IMG/VR virus record: IMGVR_UViG_3300006919_000276
Location: 1 to 29,874 of that record
Length of the DNA: 29,874 bases
Source of the DNA: a virus
Reading direction: 5' to 3' (one strand)
Positions within the stretch are counted from its first letter, which is position 1; each line of letters starts with the position of its first letter. The notes under the pieces were generated by a model, which saw only the letters and a list, made by a program, of their open reading frames with translations, searched no databases and was not told the DNA's origin. Made by a program: the position numbers and the translations under genes. This document shows positions 3,516 to 29,874 of the stretch, in pieces.

Positions 3516-3824
3516 TTAACTATTTATACTTTTAAGATTCTCAATCTCATCTCTTAAAAGTTTATTTTCTTCTTTTAATTCTTTAATTGCTTCGATAAAC
3601 AATGCTGATAATTGGTTATAATCAACATGTTTATTAATCTCTTCACCATCTAATGTCTCAACTTCTTTTACTGCAGATGGTAATACTTTTTCAACATTCT
3701 GAGCGATAACACCAGCAGATTCTTTACCGTCTTTCTTCCAAGTAAATTTTACACCATCTAATTGTGATACTTTCTCCAATGCTCCTTCAACCCTTTCAAT
3801 ATTCTCTTTGAGTTTAACATCAGA
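3516..3824 (-). other. S74 intramolecular chaperone / autoprotease domain of the giant fibre
   Basis: This segment encodes the last 102 residues of the giant fibre. The dyad Ser (codon 3822-3824) and Lys five residues later lies in SDVKLKENI. The domain then has the usual GVIAQ block, a VDYNQL block and a final heptad helix. In known S74 proteins this domain trimerises the fibre and then cuts itself off. The fit is by motif only. Confidence 0.85.
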
Positions 3825-6800
3825 AGCGGTTGTTGCAGAAAATGCAATTACATCGCCCGCAGCATGGAAATCACCATCACCTTCAAATTTAAAATTAAGT
3901 AACTCACCACTAAGTCCATCAGCTGAAGTATATACATCTATATATCCAGAATCTCCAGATGCTGTAGCAACATTAAAATCTAAATATGATTTTCCATTAG
4001 TTCCACTATGTCCTACTTTAACATGAGTTCCACTACTATATGGTAATCTTTGATCATAATCTAAATTAATTGTTTTATCAGAATTTGTTAAACTAATACC
4101 ATTACCTGCAATATTTTGATTAGCATTTGTATCAATAGTTGATAAAAGTGTATGACCACCTACAGTTAAAAGCCCAGGGCCATTTGCATCTGCAGCTGGT
4201 AAAGTAACATTATTACCATTAGAAGATGTTACTGTTAATGCACTCGATGTTCTAGAAAACGAGAGATTTGTTGTTGAAGCAATAGCAAAAGTATCTGTAC
4301 CTTCTGTTAATGTAATTCCAGTTCCGGCAGTAATACCAATATCGTGTGATGTACTATTCGACATTGTATGACGTAAGATAATATTAGCACCGTTATCTAC
4401 AACTGATACATCATTTAAGAATGTGTCAGTATTTGTATCTGTTGATGATATTGTTATAACACCACCAGATTCTGATAATGTAATATTACTACCCTTCTTA
4501 AACGTTAATGTTTCAGTAGCACCTAGTGTATTATTAACACTTCCATCTCCATTAGTATCAACGCTGACCGTTCTAAATGTATTAGTATTTGTATCTGTCC
4601 ATGGAACATTTACATATGCATCATTACCACTTAATTGAACAGCATAATTTCTAGCACCTGAATTTGTTGTATAACCTACCTCAATAAGACCTAATGTATT
4701 AGCTGCAGCTACACCATAAGTTGTATTAGTATCAGTAGCATTAATTGTAATTGTATTGCCACTTTGCGATACTGATGCTGAACCTGAAGCAGCAATTGTA
4801 ATATCACCAGATTGTAATGTTCCATTAGAAGCTTTAACTCTCGTAACTGTATTAGTATCAGTTGATGATATTGTTACAATACCTCCAGATTCTGATAATG
4901 AAATATTAGAACCTTTCTTAAGTACTAATGTTTCACTAGCACCTAATGTATTATTAACTGAACCATCACCATTAGTATCAACACTAACAGTTCTAAATGT
5001 ATTTGTATCTGTCCATGGAACATTGACGTATGCTTTTTCAGAAGCTAATTCTACTGGATAGTTTTTACCATTTTCACTATATCCAACCTTAATACCACCT
5101 CTTGTTGCAGATGAAGCAAGCGGTAAACTATATGCTGAAGGCATTGTAAACTGAGATGTATTAACAGCAGTAATATGACCTTGAGCGTTAGATGTTACAC
5201 CTGTTACTGCAGAGAAATTATTACCGTAAGATAACGTTGCTGAACCTGCAGGTGGATCATCTCTTGTTACGTTTTCATGATTAATTTGTAATCTATGAGA
5301 TTCTCCACTATTAACAGTAACAAAGTCAGTAGAAATTGCAGTACCACCATCAATTGCTAATACTTCGTCTTTAGTAATTTCTATATTACTATTATCATCT
5401 GGCCTAATATAAAATCTTGTTAAGTTTGCATCATCAGGAGCTCTTGAGAAATTTCTCAAAGTCATAGATGTATCACCTTCTGCGAATTGCCATCTATTCG
5501 TATTTTCATTCCATTGAATATACGAATTTACATATGAACCCCTTTCTACTTCAAAGAAAGCATCTTCTGTTGGTGCCTGATTTGGATAATCGTAGTTAAG
5601 AAGAATCTTATTATCAGAAATTTGCAATACTTCTGCATTAGCTGTTGTTTGTGTGCCTTGTACAGTTAAGTTACCTCTAATCACAATTGTATTATCAGAT
5701 ACGCTTGTATCACCAATATTAATTGTACCAGAAGTTTGTGCTAATCTCGATGTTAAGTTAGCAACACTTACATCAACGTCAGTATTATTATCTGTACCGT
5801 GAATGTTTATTGCGCCACTATTTGTATATGTTACTGTAACACTACCTGAATCAGTAATTCTTATATCAGAATTAGATCCATCGCTTAATCTCAGAATTGG
5901 ATCATTACCATCAGCTCCTGAATTTACGGCTGTTAATGTAGCAGTTCTTTGAGATGTGAGATAACCAGGATCAACAAAGTTTACAGTAACTTTATTTCCA
6001 CTTCTTACTGTACTAATTGATGTACCACCTTCAATATCAACTGTGTTTCCTGAACCAATTGTAGCTGTTCCACCAGAATCTGCTGTTAATGACCATGAAC
6101 TATAATCATCGAAATGTGATGTAAGATCAGTTGTTTGCCACGCTCTTGTGTGACCATAACCATCTACTATAACTTGACTTAATACAGTAGTTCCATTATT
6201 TCCGTATGTTGTTCCGCCTGATGTGAATGTGTTGTGATTCCATTGGATTCTATTACCTGATGCTGTCCATACTGCAGTTGTGTGATTACCGTTTTTAAAG
6301 TCAACATCACCATTATTACCAATATCAGCAACGTGTGTACCATTTACTTCAACATCCCAACCTGCAAATCCTAAATCACCGAGTGTTAAGTTTCTTGTAG
6401 CTACTGTACCATTAGCATCAACAACAGAACCAATTGAATCTGTTGTAACATTAATATCTAAATCTGAAATAACTGTTGCACCCGTAAGTGGTCCAGTATC
6501 AATACTGAAATCATCACCATTATATGTTGGGTGAGTATAAGAATATGTTTCAGTTGCTGTACCAATTCCAGTTACGTGACCATAAGTATCAATTGTAATA
6601 TCTTGAATATATGTTCTACCACTATTATTGCTTGATGATGCAGATGATGTATCTGAATGTGATATTCTAATTGCATCGTTTGTTGCATCAACATCGATAT
6701 CAATTGCACCGCCTGATACGAATGTTACTGTATCGTTATTAGAATCTGCTACTACTGTACCTGTTTCTGCATAGCTATATCCGCTATCTGTGTCAGTAAC

Positions 6801-9800
6801 TGCAATATTTTTAAAGATATTTTGTGATGAACCTCTATCTGTATTATTTACAGTAAATGTTAAATCGTAAGGATCAGTATCTGAACCAGGTGTTATATCA
6901 GTCCAATTAATATCAATTGTAGCACCAGTACCAGAACCTTCTACGAACTTCCATTCATTTGCTTGATTAATTGTAACTTTTGAACCGTCACCATCTTCGA
7001 CTACGAAGGATCTAATATATCTGTTATCTAAGTTAACAGTTCCAACTGAGCGTGTTAACGCATGGCCATAAGTATCATATGTTAATGTAAGATCTTGAAT
7101 TACAGTACCATCACTATTATTTGATGCTAAGTTACCGATACTTGATGTATTAGCGTGAGCTAATGTTATTACTGAATCTGTATTATCTGTAGATGATGTA
7201 ATTGTTAAACCAGCTACTCCATCAACTGAACTTACAGCAAAATCTACACTATCACCATTATTAACTGGATCGATTTGTGTACCTGAAACTTTTAGATTCC
7301 ACGCTGGATCAGATGCTTCGTATCTTGTATCAAAGTCACCAGTTGTAATAGCACTAACGTGACCTTCAGCTGTAAGTGTAAGTGATTTAATATATTGACC
7401 GTCTTGAGCATTTACTTGACCAAAATTACCAGCAGTGCCTGTAAATACATCAGCGTGTGAAAGAGCAATTGCATCATCTGTTGTGCCGCTAGCTAATGCA
7501 TTAATTACTCCATCATCTGTAAACGTAAGTGTATCATTATTAGATTCTGCGCTAATGGTAACCCCACCAGCAACTATATTTTTAAAGATAGATTGTGAAG
7601 AACCTCTATCAGTGTTTTGATATAAAACAGTATGTGTTGTACCACTTTTTGATGTAGTTACACTTACACCATTACTAGCAGTAAAATCTAAATTATCGCC
7701 TGATTCAAAAGCTTGTCCTTCGATATTCGGTGATCCTAATGTTGCTTGTGAAAGAATTAATGAACCATCTGCTTCCCATCTATCAGTTGCATAGTTATAT
7801 ACAATTGAGTGAGCACCTGTAACACCAGAAGCTACACCACTTGGGCTTGTAATTGGACCAACTTCTAAACCAAATCCTCCTGATGTTGGTTCTGAACTTA
7901 AATCGTTTCCTGCTAATACTAATGTATCTTCAACTTCTAAAGTTGTTACGTTTAATTCTGTTCTTGTTCCTTCAACGTATAGATCACCAGCAACGTATAG
8001 ATCTTCACCAATACCTACACCACCAGCTACAGTTAAAGCTCCAGTAGCTGAAGATGATGAAGCTGTATTATTAGTAATACTTACAGCGCCTCTTAATGTA
8101 GAACCTAAAGCTACATCTAATGTTCCATCTGTATCAACGTTACCAGAAATATCAAGTGATCCAGCATCTAATTCACCAGAAAGTGTAATATTTCTAAATC
8201 CTGTAATATCTTTATTTGCATCAACAACTACTACTTTTGAAGCACCTACTGTACCAGCAACTACACCATCAATAGTTTCTAATTCAGCTTCTACTATTTG
8301 TGCATTACCAATTCTAAATTGTGTACCTGTAATAATTCCAGCATTAAGTGTTGATGTTCCAATATTAATACTTCCAAACCCTGATGTAATACTACCAGAA
8401 TTTAATGCACCTGATTGTACAAGATTTGGCATGTTTGTAATTTCATCATCAAAGTATGCAGCTAAATCTGTAACAGCAACTTGCTTCATTGTGCCGTTAT
8501 CATTAACAACAACTCTATCAGCATCAGCTATAGTTGTTGATGATGCTGCTGTATTACCGTCCATTATATTTAATTCTGCAGCAGTAGCAGTAACTGTTGT
8601 TCCGTTAATTGATAATCCGTCAGTTTCGATTGAACCATTAACATCGACATTACCTTCAATATCAACATTATTAGTTACAATTAAATCATTCGAAACAGTT
8701 AAGTTATTAGCAAATGTCGCGTTTTGGCCTGATGCTGTTAAGAATAAAGCACCTAAATGTCCAGCTTTTAATTGAAAATCTGTGCCGCTCTTTGTGAATC
8801 TACCATATTCAACGCCATCAGCTTGAAGTATTGTATGATTTGATCCATTATCTAATTTAATATTACCATCAGAATTTACAGTAAATGCACCCGATGTAAT
8901 AAGAAATGCATTTGTTCCTGCAGTAATATTTTTTGCAGATGCATCGAAAACTGCTTCGATTTCGTTAATAGCACCGACTAAATGCGAAGCATCTGTATCT
9001 AATGTAACTGAACCTGATGTATGAATATCTGCATAGATTTCATTAATAGCATCAACAATAGATGTTTTATCTGTTGTTGATAAATCACTCATTGTTCTTC
9101 TTTCAGAACCAACTGCGTTAAATAGATCTGCGTCTATTTCATTGATAGCACCAACAATAAATTTGTTTGTTGTTTGAAGTGTTGTTAATGAATTAGTTGT
9201 ATTAATATCGTTATATACATTTAATAAAGCAGTACTAATATCAGTACCCATACTATTATAATTAGTATTACCGATTTCAGCATCTAATACATTAATAGCT
9301 CCAGTTAATGTTGTTGAATTAACAGCATCAACAGGACCACTTGCACCAAATACCATATTACCTATTTGTGATTCGTGTTCTCTTAATGCATCTCTAACGT
9401 TAGCAGCTGCAGTTGTTATTGTGTAATCTGAATTTGTACCTCTTAAGAACGTTTCGATTTCATTAATAGCTGCAACTACATTATTAGCATCTGTACCCAT
9501 CACATAGCCAGTTCTTTGAGTTGTATCATCTCTTAGAACATTTTCTAATTCATTAATTGCTGCAACAAGATCAGATACTGCATTTGTATCTAAATCATCT
9601 ACATCTCCGATATCACCTTGAATTTCTTTAATACCACCAACAGCAGTTGTAGCAGAATAACCTGTAGCATCATCAATTTCTAAATGATTACCAAGTTCAA
9701 CTCGTAATTCTCTTATAGCTGCTGATAAATCTGTAGCAGTTAAACCTGTAAGTGACATATTACCGATATCACCTTCATGTTCGTTAATTGCCGCTGTTAA

Positions 9801-11162
9801 ATCAGTAGCTGTTGTATTTAAACTTAATGAACCAACTTCTGTATGTAATTGATTTAATGCACCTGTGATTGTATTGTTACTATCTCCTGAATCGATAGTA
9901 CTAATACTTTCACTACCGATTTGATCTTCATGTTCTCTTACTGCAGCAGTTAAGTTTGATGCTGATGTTCCTAAGTTACTTGCTGTGACATCACCAATTT
10001 CATCGTGAATTTGCTCGAGTGCACCAGTGATAGTATCATTAGAACTAGAAATATCAGTAATATCAACATTACCAATTTGTGTTTCATGTTCAGCGATTGC
10101 GCTACTTACTGTTGAAGCAGTTGTTCCCATTGCTAAAGCAGTAATTGTTCCTAATTCTGCATCGTGTTCGTTAATTGCTAATACAACATCATTAGCAGAT
10201 GTAGTTAAATTTTCTACTGTACCAATATCATCTTGTAATTCATTAATAGCTGCTACTAAATCGAGAGAGAAAACTTTAATTGTATTTGTATTTGCTGCAG
10301 GAGTTGTAAGTTCAATATAACTACCATAAGTACTATCAACCGCTGTTAATGCTCCATGATCTGCAGCTGCAATTTCATCGGCTGAACCTAATACTCTTAA
10401 TTTTGCTGTAGCACTAAAAGATCCTTGAGATGTTTTAAATCTAATTTCACTTGAATCTACTGAGTGAAGAACACCATACCAATTTGAATCAGATTCAATA
10501 TCTCCTTGTGTACTTAATGAACTTCCATTCTGATAAACTGTTACACCTTCACTAAATGAATTACCTACAGATGGTGAATTACTAATCGCAGAAACACCAG
10601 CAATTTTTGGTGCAAAGAATCCATTTGCTGCCATACCTTGAGTTAATTCTGTGTTATTATTGTAAACTCTAGCGATTGCTACTGGATATGATTCAATAAT
10701 AATCCTAGCAATATTAGCATTTGCAATTGTATCAGGTGAACCTGTGCCTACTTTTAAATCAGCACTTGAACTAAATGTTCCTGTTGAATCTCTTACAATA
10801 ATTTTATTTACAGATGCAGAAACAATAGTAGCTGACCAACTTTCAGAACCAGATGAGCCTTGATAAATAATTGCATTCGCAACATATGATGCATCAAGTG
10901 ATGATACACCTTCAAGAATAATAGATCCACCAGTATTATCAATAGTATGTTGTGGGCTTAATTCAAACCTTGTAACTTTAGAGTTATTATCAGCTCCATC
11001 AAATAAAACTTGTCCAGCTGAAGCAGTATAACTATAAGTTTTATCTGCTAATAAAGCATCAAGCTGTTCGTTATCACCAACGTGTAACGATATTTCATTT
11101 GTCTTCTGTCTTAAGATCTCTAACGTATCTTGTTTTAAAACTCTAGTTTCTTTATTTGCCAT
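3516..11162 (-). CDS. Giant tail fibre protein (2548 aa) with C-terminal S74 chaperone
   Basis: This is the longest gene of the window. Residues 1-300 are beta-rich. Residues about 300-740 hold 17 repeats of the form LxxAINExExxIG, probably a trimeric helical or coiled-coil shaft. Residues about 750-2400 are Thr/Asn/Gly-rich beta repeats with fibre motifs (TAAELNIMDG, ALTVAGGVGIGEDLYVAGDL, NLTVQGTQTT) and a duplicated unit around VDTNGDGSVNNTLGA. Residues 2447-2548 are an S74 intramolecular chaperone: SDVKLKENI, then GVIAQNVEKVLP, HVDYNQLSALFIEAI and a terminal coiled coil. Ser2447 and Lys2452 have the spacing of the autocleavage dyad known from endosialidase tailspikes, so cleavage before Ser2447 is expected after trimerisation. 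The ATG overlaps the stop of the 77-residue gene (TAATG), and a late promoter lies inside that gene. The role is a host-recognition long tail fibre; the receptor is unknown. Confidence 0.88.
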   Translation of the reverse strand: MANKETRVLKQDTLEILRQKTNEISLHVGDNEQLDALLADKTYSYTASAGQVLFDGADNNSKVTRFELSPQHTIDNTGGSIILEGVSSLDASYVANAIIYQGSSGSESWSATIVSASVNKIIVRDSTGTFSSSADLKVGTGSPDTIANANIARIIIESYPVAIARVYNNNTELTQGMAANGFFAPKIAGVSAISNSPSVGNSFSEGVTVYQNGSSLSTQGDIESDSNWYGVLHSVDSSEIRFKTSQGSFSATAKLRVLGSADEIAAADHGALTAVDSTYGSYIELTTPAANTNTIKVFSLDLVAAINELQDDIGTVENLTTSANDVVLAINEHDAELGTITALAMGTTASTVSSAIAEHETQIGNVDITDISSSNDTITGALEQIHDEIGDVTASNLGTSASNLTAAVREHEDQIGSESISTIDSGDSNNTITGALNQLHTEVGSLSLNTTATDLTAAINEHEGDIGNMSLTGLTATDLSAAIRELRVELGNHLEIDDATGYSATTAVGGIKEIQGDIGDVDDLDTNAVSDLVAAINELENVLRDDTTQRTGYVMGTDANNVVAAINEIETFLRGTNSDYTITTAAANVRDALREHESQIGNMVFGASGPVDAVNSTTLTGAINVLDAEIGNTNYNSMGTDISTALLNVYNDINTTNSLTTLQTTNKFIVGAINEIDADLFNAVGSERRTMSDLSTTDKTSIVDAINEIYADIHTSGSVTLDTDASHLVGAINEIEAVFDASAKNITAGTNAFLITSGAFTVNSDGNIKLDNGSNHTILQADGVEYGRFTKSGTDFQLKAGHLGALFLTASGQNATFANNLTVSNDLIVTNNVDIEGNVDVNGSIETDGLSINGTTVTATAAELNIMDGNTAASSTTIADADRVVVNDNGTMKQVAVTDLAAYFDDEITNMPNLVQSGALNSGSITSGFGSINIGTSTLNAGIITGTQFRIGNAQIVEAELETIDGVVAGTVGASKVVVVDANKDITGFRNITLSGELDAGSLDISGNVDTDGTLDVALGSTLRGAVSITNNTASSSSATGALTVAGGVGIGEDLYVAGDLYVEGTRTELNVTTLEVEDTLVLAGNDLSSEPTSGGFGLEVGPITSPSGVASGVTGAHSIVYNYATDRWEADGSLILSQATLGSPNIEGQAFESGDNLDFTASNGVSVTTSKSGTTHTVLYQNTDRGSSQSIFKNIVAGGVTISAESNNDTLTFTDDGVINALASGTTDDAIALSHADVFTGTAGNFGQVNAQDGQYIKSLTLTAEGHVSAITTGDFDTRYEASDPAWNLKVSGTQIDPVNNGDSVDFAVSSVDGVAGLTITSSTDNTDSVITLAHANTSSIGNLASNNSDGTVIQDLTLTYDTYGHALTRSVGTVNLDNRYIRSFVVEDGDGSKVTINQANEWKFVEGSGTGATIDINWTDITPGSDTDPYDLTFTVNNTDRGSSQNIFKNIAVTDTDSGYSYAETGTVVADSNNDTVTFVSGGAIDIDVDATNDAIRISHSDTSSASSSNNSGRTYIQDITIDTYGHVTGIGTATETYSYTHPTYNGDDFSIDTGPLTGATVISDLDINVTTDSIGSVVDANGTVATRNLTLGDLGFAGWDVEVNGTHVADIGNNGDVDFKNGNHTTAVWTASGNRIQWNHNTFTSGGTTYGNNGTTVLSQVIVDGYGHTRAWQTTDLTSHFDDYSSWSLTADSGGTATIGSGNTVDIEGGTSISTVRSGNKVTVNFVDPGYLTSQRTATLTAVNSGADGNDPILRLSDGSNSDIRITDSGSVTVTYTNSGAINIHGTDNNTDVDVSVANLTSRLAQTSGTINIGDTSVSDNTIVIRGNLTVQGTQTTANAEVLQISDNKILLNYDYPNQAPTEDAFFEVERGSYVNSYIQWNENTNRWQFAEGDTSMTLRNFSRAPDDANLTRFYIRPDDNSNIEITKDEVLAIDGGTAISTDFVTVNSGESHRLQINHENVTRDDPPAGSATLSYGNNFSAVTGVTSNAQGHITAVNTSQFTMPSAYSLPLASSATRGGIKVGYSENGKNYPVELASEKAYVNVPWTDTNTFRTVSVDTNGDGSVNNTLGASETLVLKKGSNISLSESGGIVTISSTDTNTVTRVKASNGTLQSGDITIAASGSASVSQSGNTITINATDTNTTYGVAAANTLGLIEVGYTTNSGARNYAVQLSGNDAYVNVPWTDTNTNTFRTVSVDTNGDGSVNNTLGATETLTFKKGSNITLSESGGVITISSTDTNTDTFLNDVSVVDNGANIILRHTMSNSTSHDIGITAGTGITLTEGTDTFAIASTTNLSFSRTSSALTVTSSNGNNVTLPAADANGPGLLTVGGHTLLSTIDTNANQNIAGNGISLTNSDKTINLDYDQRLPYSSGTHVKVGHSGTNGKSYLDFNVATASGDSGYIDVYTSADGLSGELLNFKFEGDGDFHAAGDVIAFSATTASDVKLKENIERVEGALEKVSQLDGVKFTWKKDGKESAGVIAQNVEKVLPSAVKEVETLDGEEINKHVDYNQLSALFIEAIKELKEENKLLRDEIENLKSINS
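3521..3528 (-). promoter_or_regulatory. T4-type late promoter octamer before the 113-aa gene
   Basis: TATAAATAGTTAA on the minus strand covers the final codons and stop of the giant fibre gene. The expected start point, near 3515, would leave a leader of about ten bases and would cut into the AAGGAA ribosome binding site. It may therefore be weak, or a coincidence of the codons for Ser-Ile-Asn-Ser. Confidence 0.4.
4428..5034 (-). repeat. Duplicated coding unit in the giant fibre
   Basis: Two near-identical stretches of about 185-195 bases, at roughly 4428-4622 and 4852-5034, encode the same run: FRTVSVDTNGDGSVNNTLGA, followed by a TLxFKKGSNIxLSESGG block. Differences are mostly third-base or conservative, so this looks like an internal duplication under selection. 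About 230 bases of related but different fibre sequence separate the copies. Confidence 0.75.
8945..10262 (-). repeat. Seventeen AINE-type repeats in the giant fibre
   Basis: Reading the translated minus strand I count 17 units matching LxxAINExExxIG, for example LVAAINELQDDIG, LTAAINEHEGDIG and IVDAINEIYADI. Unit length is variable, mostly 20-35 residues. They occupy residues about 300-740. The pattern suggests short amphipathic helices alternating with Thr/Ser-rich linkers, as in other phage fibre shafts. The DNA is diverged between units. Confidence 0.8.
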
Positions 11163-28931: not shown

Positions 28932-28948
28932 TATAATAGGAGAAAATA

Positions 28949-29659
28949 ATGGCTTTACCAAAGTTAAATAATGCACGGTACAGTACTGTGATCCCATCAA
29001 CGGGTCAAGAAGTAGAATTTAGACCGTACTTAGTGAAAGAAGAAAAGATTTTAATGTTAGCATTAGAATCAAACGATCAAAAACAGATTTTAAAAGCTGT
29101 AGTTGATGTAATTAAATCATGTGTATATGATGATATTGATGAGAACAATCTTGCTATGGTTGATATCGAATCGTTATTTATTGCCTTAAGATCAAAATCT
29201 AGTGGAGAGAAAATTGATCTACAGGTTAAATGTACGGAATGCGATACTGCTAATGATGTAACGGTTGATTTTGAAGAGATTACTGTTCCTGAATTTGATG
29301 AAAAGAAAGGAACAATTATGTTAACAGATGAAGTTGGTTTAACATTACGTGTGCCATCTTATAAAGATGTTATAAAATCTCAATCAAGCGGCGAGGGTAA
29401 TGATGTTGAATTAGCATTTAGTATGATGATCGATAGTATTGAAACTATTTTCGATGCTGATGGTGTATATAATGCAGCTGATGAAAAAAGATCAACTCTT
29501 GTCGAGTTTATTGACTCATTAAATAATGAGCAGTTTACTAAAGTTGGCGATTTCTTTACAGATATGCCACAACTACAATATGATGTAGAATTTGAATGTG
29601 CTAAATGTAAAGCAGAAAATAAGCATGAGATAAGAGGCTTACAAGGTTTTTTTACTTAG
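28949..29659 (+). CDS. 26: Baseplate hub assembly protein gp26-like with Cys4 zinc-ribbon pattern
   Basis: The 236-residue product fits the T4 baseplate protein gp26 family (T4 gp26 is 208 residues). It starts with PSTGQEVEFRPYLVKEEKIL, followed by MLALESNDQKQILKAVVDVI and DIESLFIALRSKSSGEKIDL. Two CxxC pairs, Cys95/Cys98 (KCTECD) and Cys217/Cys220 (CAKCK), could bind zinc. AGGAG lies eight bases before the ATG, the clearest ribosome binding site of the plus-strand genes. The frame ends in LQGFFT at a run of seven T. A -1 shift there would extend the protein into the gp51-like frame. In T4, gp26 and gp51 act in hub assembly; a chaperone role, like the G/GT pair of lambda, is inference. Confidence 0.85.
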   Translation: MALPKLNNARYSTVIPSTGQEVEFRPYLVKEEKILMLALESNDQKQILKAVVDVIKSCVYDDIDENNLAMVDIESLFIALRSKSSGEKIDLQVKCTECDTANDVTVDFEEITVPEFDEKKGTIMLTDEVGLTLRVPSYKDVIKSQSSGEGNDVELAFSMMIDSIETIFDADGVYNAADEKRSTLVEFIDSLNNEQFTKVGDFFTDMPQLQYDVEFECAKCKAENKHEIRGLQGFFT

Positions 29660-29665
29660 GCCTCT
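29632..29665 (+). promoter_or_regulatory. Candidate -1 programmed frameshift site (T7 run, SD-like element, hairpin)
   Basis: The end of gp26 reads CAAGGTTTTTTTACTTAG. The seven T at 29647-29653 allow tandem slippage of Phe tRNA from TTT TTT. A Shine-Dalgarno-like AAGAGG (29632-29637) lies nine bases upstream, a spacing like that of the dnaX frameshift stimulator. AGAGGCTTA (29633-29641) can pair with TAGGCCTCT (29657-29665) as a nine-base-pair stem with one G-U, placing the slippery run in the loop. After a -1 shift the reading frame continues for 63 codons. All parts are seen in the sequence; the frameshifting itself is inference. Confidence 0.6.
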
Positions 29666-29844
29666 CACACGATAGCTTAGTTAATCATTTTAAGACTAAC
29701 TTTGCTATGATACAGCACCATAATTGGAGCTTAACTGAATTAGACAATATGATGCCGTGGGAGAGGGAAATATACATAACGTTACTCTCTGAATGGATCA
29801 AAGAGGAAAACGAAAGAATTAAAAAAGAAAATAGGAATATATAA
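29653..29844 (+). CDS. 51: gp51-like hub assembly segment in -1 frame, probably a gp26 frameshift extension
   Basis: In the -1 frame relative to gp26 the sequence continues as YLGLSHDSLVNHFKTNFAMI, then QHHNWSLTELDNMMPWEREI and a Lys/Glu-rich helix (EWIKEENERIKKENRN) before TAA. The MPWEREIYI block is the kind of motif I associate with short gp51-type proteins next to gp26. The frame is open upstream only to a TGA at about 29625-29627, and no ATG, GTG or TTG lies before residue 19 (ATG in FAMIQ). That ATG has no ribosome binding site and would give only 45 residues, skipping the conserved start. So a 298-residue gp26-gp51 fusion made by frameshifting is the simplest reading. A gap in the sequence data is the alternative. 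Confidence 0.65.
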   Translation, partial: YLGLSHDSLVNHFKTNFAMIQHHNWSLTELDNMMPWEREIYITLLSEWIKEENERIKKENRNI

Positions 29845-29874
29845 TGAGCGAAGAAGAAATTAAAAAATCAGGAC
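29844..29874 (+). CDS. Start of next gene, truncated by the window edge
   Basis: An ATG overlaps the TAA of the gp51-like frame as TAATG, and AGGA lies seven bases upstream. Ten codons are visible (MSEEEIKKSG). In T4-like order the tail tape measure or another hub gene would be expected near here, but nothing in ten residues decides it. Confidence 0.6.
   Translation, partial: MSEEEIKKSG

Follow-up and report, generated by a model that had tools for sequence, protein, structure and literature searches.

The window, by which we mean the whole 29,874-base viral record analyzed here (IMG/VR IMGVR_UViG_3300006919_000276), belongs to a marine myovirus of the T4-like type. Genes for the baseplate and tail fibres lie on its minus strand, and those for head closure, a DNA end protector, the tail tube, and gp26 lie on its plus strand. 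Among the minus-strand genes, a 2,548-aa ORF (3516-11162, minus strand) has a tail-fibre-like C terminus (residues 2434-2545) and lacks a PHROG match over most of its length. The gp26 gene lies close to the end of the window (Table 1); its closest annotated counterparts share about 37-40% identity with it and come from Kyanoviridae cyanophages or marine relatives, and its short form scores 196.8 bits against PF12322, for which the curated Pfam cut-off is 24.5. The protein encoded at 28949-29656 apparently consists of two similar halves, each ending in helices and then a beta hairpin that contains CxxC (residues 88-107 and 210-229), and in a profile comparison the second hairpin aligned to the first hairpin of T4 gp51. 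At its 3' end the gene reads GGC TTA CAA GGT TTT TTT ACT TAG, which contains the run of seven T pointed out in the preliminary description. That account placed the gp26 stop five bases after the run, whereas only the three bases ACT separate the two.

Table 1. Features at the gp26-gp51 junction of the window, in order of position.
Feature	Position	Strand	Basis
gp26 Shine-Dalgarno sequence AGGAG	28938..28942	+	Sequence; 6 bases before the gp26 ATG
gp26 short form, 236 aa, N part of tail assembly chaperone	28949..29659	+	PF12322 (T4_baseplate) and PHROG 150 (baseplate hub); predicted fold matches HK97 tail assembly chaperone
Shine-Dalgarno-like AAGAGG, 9-base spacer to heptamer, likely frameshift stimulator	29632..29637	+	Anti-Shine-Dalgarno energy peak in both groups; GAG bias in cyanophages
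5' arm of proposed stem, overlapping the Shine-Dalgarno-like element; probably without function as a stem	29633..29641	+	No covariation
Slippery heptamer T TTT TTT, zero-frame phase	29647..29653	+	T TTT TT[T/C/G] kept in 173/175 loci
-1 frame tail, gp51-like, C-terminal part of 298-aa long form; 65 codons from slipped TTT TTT, then TAA	29647..29844	+	PHROG 634, E=1.5e-28; dN/dS 0.048
Zero-frame stop TAG, end of short form	29657..29659	+	One codon past heptamer in 171/173 loci
3' arm of proposed stem; probably without function as a stem	29657..29665	+	No covariation
Start of next gene, ATG overlapping TAA of -1 tail, cut by window end	29844..29874	+	Sequence; homologous region in loci L010 and L005

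In these two relatives (L010 and L005), the region downstream encodes an EF-hand-like membrane protein of about 107 aa and then a tape-measure-like protein of about 606 aa. The small protein of L010 (3893-4216) has a single EF-hand-like motif, DTNGDG, as well as probable membrane helices, with a Pfam match to EF-hand_5 at only E=0.0087 and no PHROG match. The hydrophobic protein of about 606 aa, one small gene downstream in relatives, matched the tape measure family PHROG 167 weakly and at one locus only (E = 0.0096), and the Cr30 record labels its counterpart tape measure; the window ends upstream of that gene.

The T run of the window forms a heptamer X XXY YYZ, here T TTT TTT, in the canonical -1 phase for a simultaneous slip of two tRNA-Phe. 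An alignment of the junction across relatives had been proposed as a check on whether the T run, its phase, and the spacing of the upstream element are conserved, and whether relatives carry a repaired, continuous frame. We assembled 175 gp26 loci by scanning IMG/VR with the window gp26 and with the gp26 of P-SSM2, each scan yielding 80 loci, and by adding annotated phages of Vibrio, Aeromonas, Cronobacter, Caulobacter, and Rhizobium together with other relatives. An in-phase heptamer was present in 173 of them, as T TTT TTT (84 loci), T TTT TTC (88), or T TTT TTG (1). The distance from heptamer to stop was exactly one codon in 171 of these 173 loci, and none of the heptamer-bearing relatives had a continuous frame. 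Elsewhere in gp26 an in-phase heptamer is rare, occurring once in 9,379 codon positions in one group and twice in 4,187 in the other. Within the window itself, shuffling the codons of gp26 placed such a heptamer among the last four codons with P ~0.003, and an open stretch of 62 codons would by itself arise by chance with P ~0.012. We regard the conservation of the heptamer in 173 of 175 relatives as the decisive evidence against chance.

Four loci from Ackermannviridae and relatives (L175, L176, L183, and L185) have a gp26 that ends in ATT TTC or CTT TTC, without a heptamer. In the same phages, TAATG is present in Ag3, Cygsa01, and K355, and Kuttervirus FrontPhageNews has no start codon at the beginning of the tail. 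Because FrontPhageNews lacks a start there, heptamer-less gp26 genes of its type may use a single-tRNA slip on T TTC instead.

Beyond the heptamer, the -1 frame stays open from 29647 until the TAA at 29842-29844 and encodes FFYLGLSHDSLVNHFKTNFAMIQHHNWSLTELDNMMPWEREIYITLLSEWIKEENERIKKENRNI. Joined to gp26 it gives a predicted gp26-gp51 fusion of 298 aa whose junction peptide spans GLQGFFYLGLSHDSLVNHFK, and the sequence bears out the expectation of 236- and 298-residue products from one start. The segment had been called conserved-looking, and substitution patterns agree. Among 66 representatives at less than 85% identity, including 41 from the window group and 18 cyanophages, dN/dS of the -1 tail was 0.048 in the window group, a value of strong purifying selection, and 0.10 in cyanophages. 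Over the same stretch and in the same representatives, the -1 frame was free of stops, against more than five per sequence when read in the gp26 frame. Where the two frames overlap, the last gp26 residue varies among T, M, G, I, and S. The -1 residue read from the overlapping bases, in contrast, is aromatic in every window-group sequence (Y in 31, W in 8, F in 2) and R in 17 of 18 cyanophages. Judged by this pattern of substitutions, coding switches frame at the heptamer, and the -1 tail is coding.

The identity of the tail as gp51-like, another point of the preliminary description, was upheld by profile searches. All 23 tails tested matched PHROG 634 ("baseplate hub assembly catalyst"), and the -1 tail of the window aligned with residues 201-244 of T4 gp51, its C terminus, at E=1.9e-4; Pfam holds no family matching the -1 tail alone. 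Equally, the segment was correctly described as lacking a usable start near its beginning, the first NTG being an ATG that lies within the conserved segment, at codon 20. In 76 of 81 window-group loci, ATG, GTG, and TTG are all absent from -1 codons -3 to 18, and most residues of this start-less stretch are 85-100% conserved in the group, so the conserved N-terminal part of the tail is out of reach of ordinary separate initiation. A conserved -1 ORF that has no start of its own and continues a short form is the arrangement of frameshifted chaperones of the G/GT type, and it is what we found here.

Upstream of the heptamer, the element AAGAGG is present nine bases before the T run, as had been noted, and across relatives a corresponding element sits 9-10 bases upstream. 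Predicted pairing with the anti-Shine-Dalgarno sequence peaked for 8-base stretches starting 13-17 bases before the heptamer, with best values of -5.6 and -8.3 kcal/mol over a background of about -0.8. Cyanophages keep the Shine-Dalgarno-like element through a different amino acid, E instead of R/K. The Glu codon concerned is GAG in 16 of 18 cyanophages against a usage of 28% (P = 1e-7, with related sequences counted as independent), suggesting that the nucleotides, and not the residues alone, are under selection. The element probably stimulates the frameshift.

A nine-base-pair stem enclosing the slippery run had been proposed, and the pairing is indeed present (with one T.G pair), but covariation is absent. 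Across relatives, 83.7% of cells were paired compared to 83.9% in shuffles, the covariation score was reached by 299 of 500 shuffles, and in cyanophages the stem was no longer than with shuffled 3' arms. Moreover, its 5' arm is the Shine-Dalgarno-like element, so stem and element cannot act simultaneously. RNAalifold gave almost nothing in the way of conserved downstream structure. Single downstream sequences folded somewhat better than shuffles (mean z of -1.3 and -2.3), and that of the window alone had a folding z of -1.58.

Taken together, these observations support the main proposal of the preliminary description, a programmed -1 frameshift joining gp26 to a gp51-like tail, through the conserved heptamer, the -1 phase, and the spacing of the Shine-Dalgarno-like element. 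We consider -1 frameshifting in the window gp26 very likely, and we infer its occurrence, its ribosomal nature, and its efficiency from sequence comparison. Under this model, gp26 and the downstream gp51-like segment would together form a single gene of the G/GT class of tail assembly chaperones, with slippage of some ribosomes by one base on the T7 run giving rise to a short and a long product. The majority of ribosomes would terminate at 29657-29659 and release the 236-aa gp26. In a minority, the two tRNA-Phe on T TTT TTT (29647-29653) would slip one base back, probably aided by pairing of the ribosomal anti-Shine-Dalgarno with AAGAGG nine bases upstream, and these ribosomes would read on to 29841, producing the 298-aa fusion. 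By analogy with lambda G/GT, both forms might bind the tape measure protein, and the C part of the long form might recruit tail tube or hub subunits.

Other processes could account for parts of this arrangement. After releasing gp26 at its stop, ribosomes might initiate anew at a start codon of the -1 frame and so produce two separate proteins; public records often annotate a gp51 of its own. In some relatives an ATG does overlap the stop or lie close to it (TAATG in ValKK3, TAAGTATG in P-SSM2), and the ATG at -1 codon 5 of P-SSM2-like cyanophages would permit separate initiation there. However, the heptamer is conserved even in relatives that have an ATG, the Shine-Dalgarno-like element of cyanophages lies more than 20 bases from it, too far for initiation, and the 76 window-clade loci without an NTG before codon 18 would lose conserved residues by starting at their first ATG. 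Since, in addition, T4 gp51 is itself a fusion and not a free tail, we consider a separately initiated gp51 very unlikely in the window. Nearly all of the P-SSM2-like cyanophages (loci L087-L166) combine an ATG at -1 codon 5, just past the gp26 stop, with the conserved heptamer; judging from these sequences, such phages could produce the fusion as well as a free gp51 peptide.

The slip might also belong to the RNA polymerase: with a U inserted on the T run, the fusion would lie in one frame in a minority of mRNAs. The pure T7 run of the window group would suit this, but 88 of 173 loci, those of cyanophages and of Vibrio/Aeromonas relatives, have only six T (T TTT TTC), and polymerase slippage usually takes place on runs of about nine or more. 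As the conserved phase and the Shine-Dalgarno-like element likewise point to the ribosome, transcriptional slippage appears very unlikely. Homopolymers are, finally, generally prone to error, and a miscounted T in sequencing or assembly would hide one continuous frame. This explanation is refuted by the relatives and retains practically no probability: the same -1 arrangement recurs in 80 other metagenomic contigs and many cultured phages, half of the relatives have T6C, and the zero-frame stop follows the heptamer by one codon in nearly all.

The preliminary description treated gp26 and gp51 as separate genes in T4, which they are, and divergent ones; yet the two are of the same family, and gp51 already includes the tail. 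Both match PF12322 (8.8e-64 for gp26 and 3.9e-52 for gp51). T4 gp51 does so over residues 1-201 and matches PHROG 150 over profile positions 13-280 of 282; its matches also take in the tail portion of PHROG 150 and PHROG 634. Since it spans both short form and tail, T4 gp51 represents a natural in-frame fusion of the two, with T4 gp26 as the short form. On these profile matches, T4 gp26 and gp51 belong to one family, in which gp51 is the long form as a gene of its own. When the window gp26 profile was compared with T4 gp51 as a single sequence, the alignment was confined to a CxxC region of 35 residues, so the kinship to T4 rests on the Pfam and PHROG matches.

T4 thus has two separate, divergent genes, 26 and 51, in place of the one frameshifted gene of the window, and its gp26 ends in GAG TTC TTT GAG TTA CTA TAA, which is not slippery, unlike the end of the window gp26. 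The same divergent pair is found in Aeromonas phage 31, KARL-1, and an RB49-like phage. RB43 (L179:2501-3794) differs from T4 in that its long gp51-like gene and the short gp26-like gene behind it are arranged in tandem, both on one strand. In a phylogenetic tree, which bears on grouping and not on the root or the order of events, the long-form copies formed one group (100/98) and sequences with the frameshift signal spanned most other lineages. One scenario, to which we would give slightly less than even chances, is that frameshifting with T TTT TTY and a Shine-Dalgarno-like element upstream of it as its main determinants, without conserved downstream structure, was ancestral in the T4 superfamily, was replaced by a duplicated long-form gene in the T4, RB49, 44RR, and RB43 lineages, and was weakened to T TTC in Ackermannviridae-like phages.

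The chaperone assignment was also considered at the level of structure. An AlphaFold model of gp26 (pLDDT 88.9), compared to the PDB with VIA-align, matched 3fgx (Z 8.3), 2ob9 (Z 7.0), and 5ir0 (Z 5.5), with the fourth-ranked entry at 3.2. The second of these, 2ob9, is the HK97 tail assembly chaperone, matched over 84 residues, so that the predicted fold of gp26 resembles that protein; 5ir0 is a phage-inducible-island protein. Foldseek gave no significant match with the same model (E 0.84). The model therefore lends moderate support to a chaperone fold for gp26 residues 1-95, and only moderate support, given that a Z of 7-8 can reflect a common arrangement and that the Foldseek result was non-significant. 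Comparing the gp26 profile to the sequences of solved structures yielded nothing convincing, and searching the PDB with the T4-type long form yielded no meaningful match.

These results also bear on annotation. Many cyanophage and marine phage records that contain gp26 omit the -1 tail or assign it an arbitrary separate start. In two cyanophage records, KJ019036.1 (L083) and KJ019063.1 (L170), the conserved tail is unannotated, and gp51 is consequently missing from their gene tables. Our analysis corrects such annotation, in that the functional product is likely the frameshifted fusion.

Among known systems, the window gene can be set beside lambda G/GT, which produces a short form and, by low-level -1 frameshifting, a long form from one start. 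The two differ in their heptamers, T TTT TTY here and G GGA AAG in lambda. Poly-T frameshifting in T4-like chaperone genes was reportedly described by Vladimirov, Gautam & Davidson (Virology 2022, 566:9-15). Several T4-like groups reportedly conserve frameshifting, with genes 26 and 51 serving in T4. We found no open-access primary report of gp26/gp51 frameshifting in the literature. Two papers citing the 2022 work report poly-T -1 signals as known in TAC-N genes of T4-like phages (PMC12846349) and, in some T4-like phages, a short gene accompanied instead by a longer, fused one (PMC10885494). A 2016 review had described G/GT frameshifting as conserved in long-tailed phages "except T4" (PMC5009743). 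Our data support the published resolution of this exception, in that relatives show the frameshift signal and T4 holds both forms as related separate genes. The short/long chaperone logic suggested for the T4-type pair in the preliminary description is therefore supported, but not as a new idea, having been published in 2022. As far as the citing papers describe it, that work concerns the same kind of gene and the same logic, so the window gp26 is a strong, well-conserved new example, from a marine clade, of a published strategy and not a new strategy; relative to it, the Shine-Dalgarno-like element and the dual-coding test are what was measured in the present analysis.
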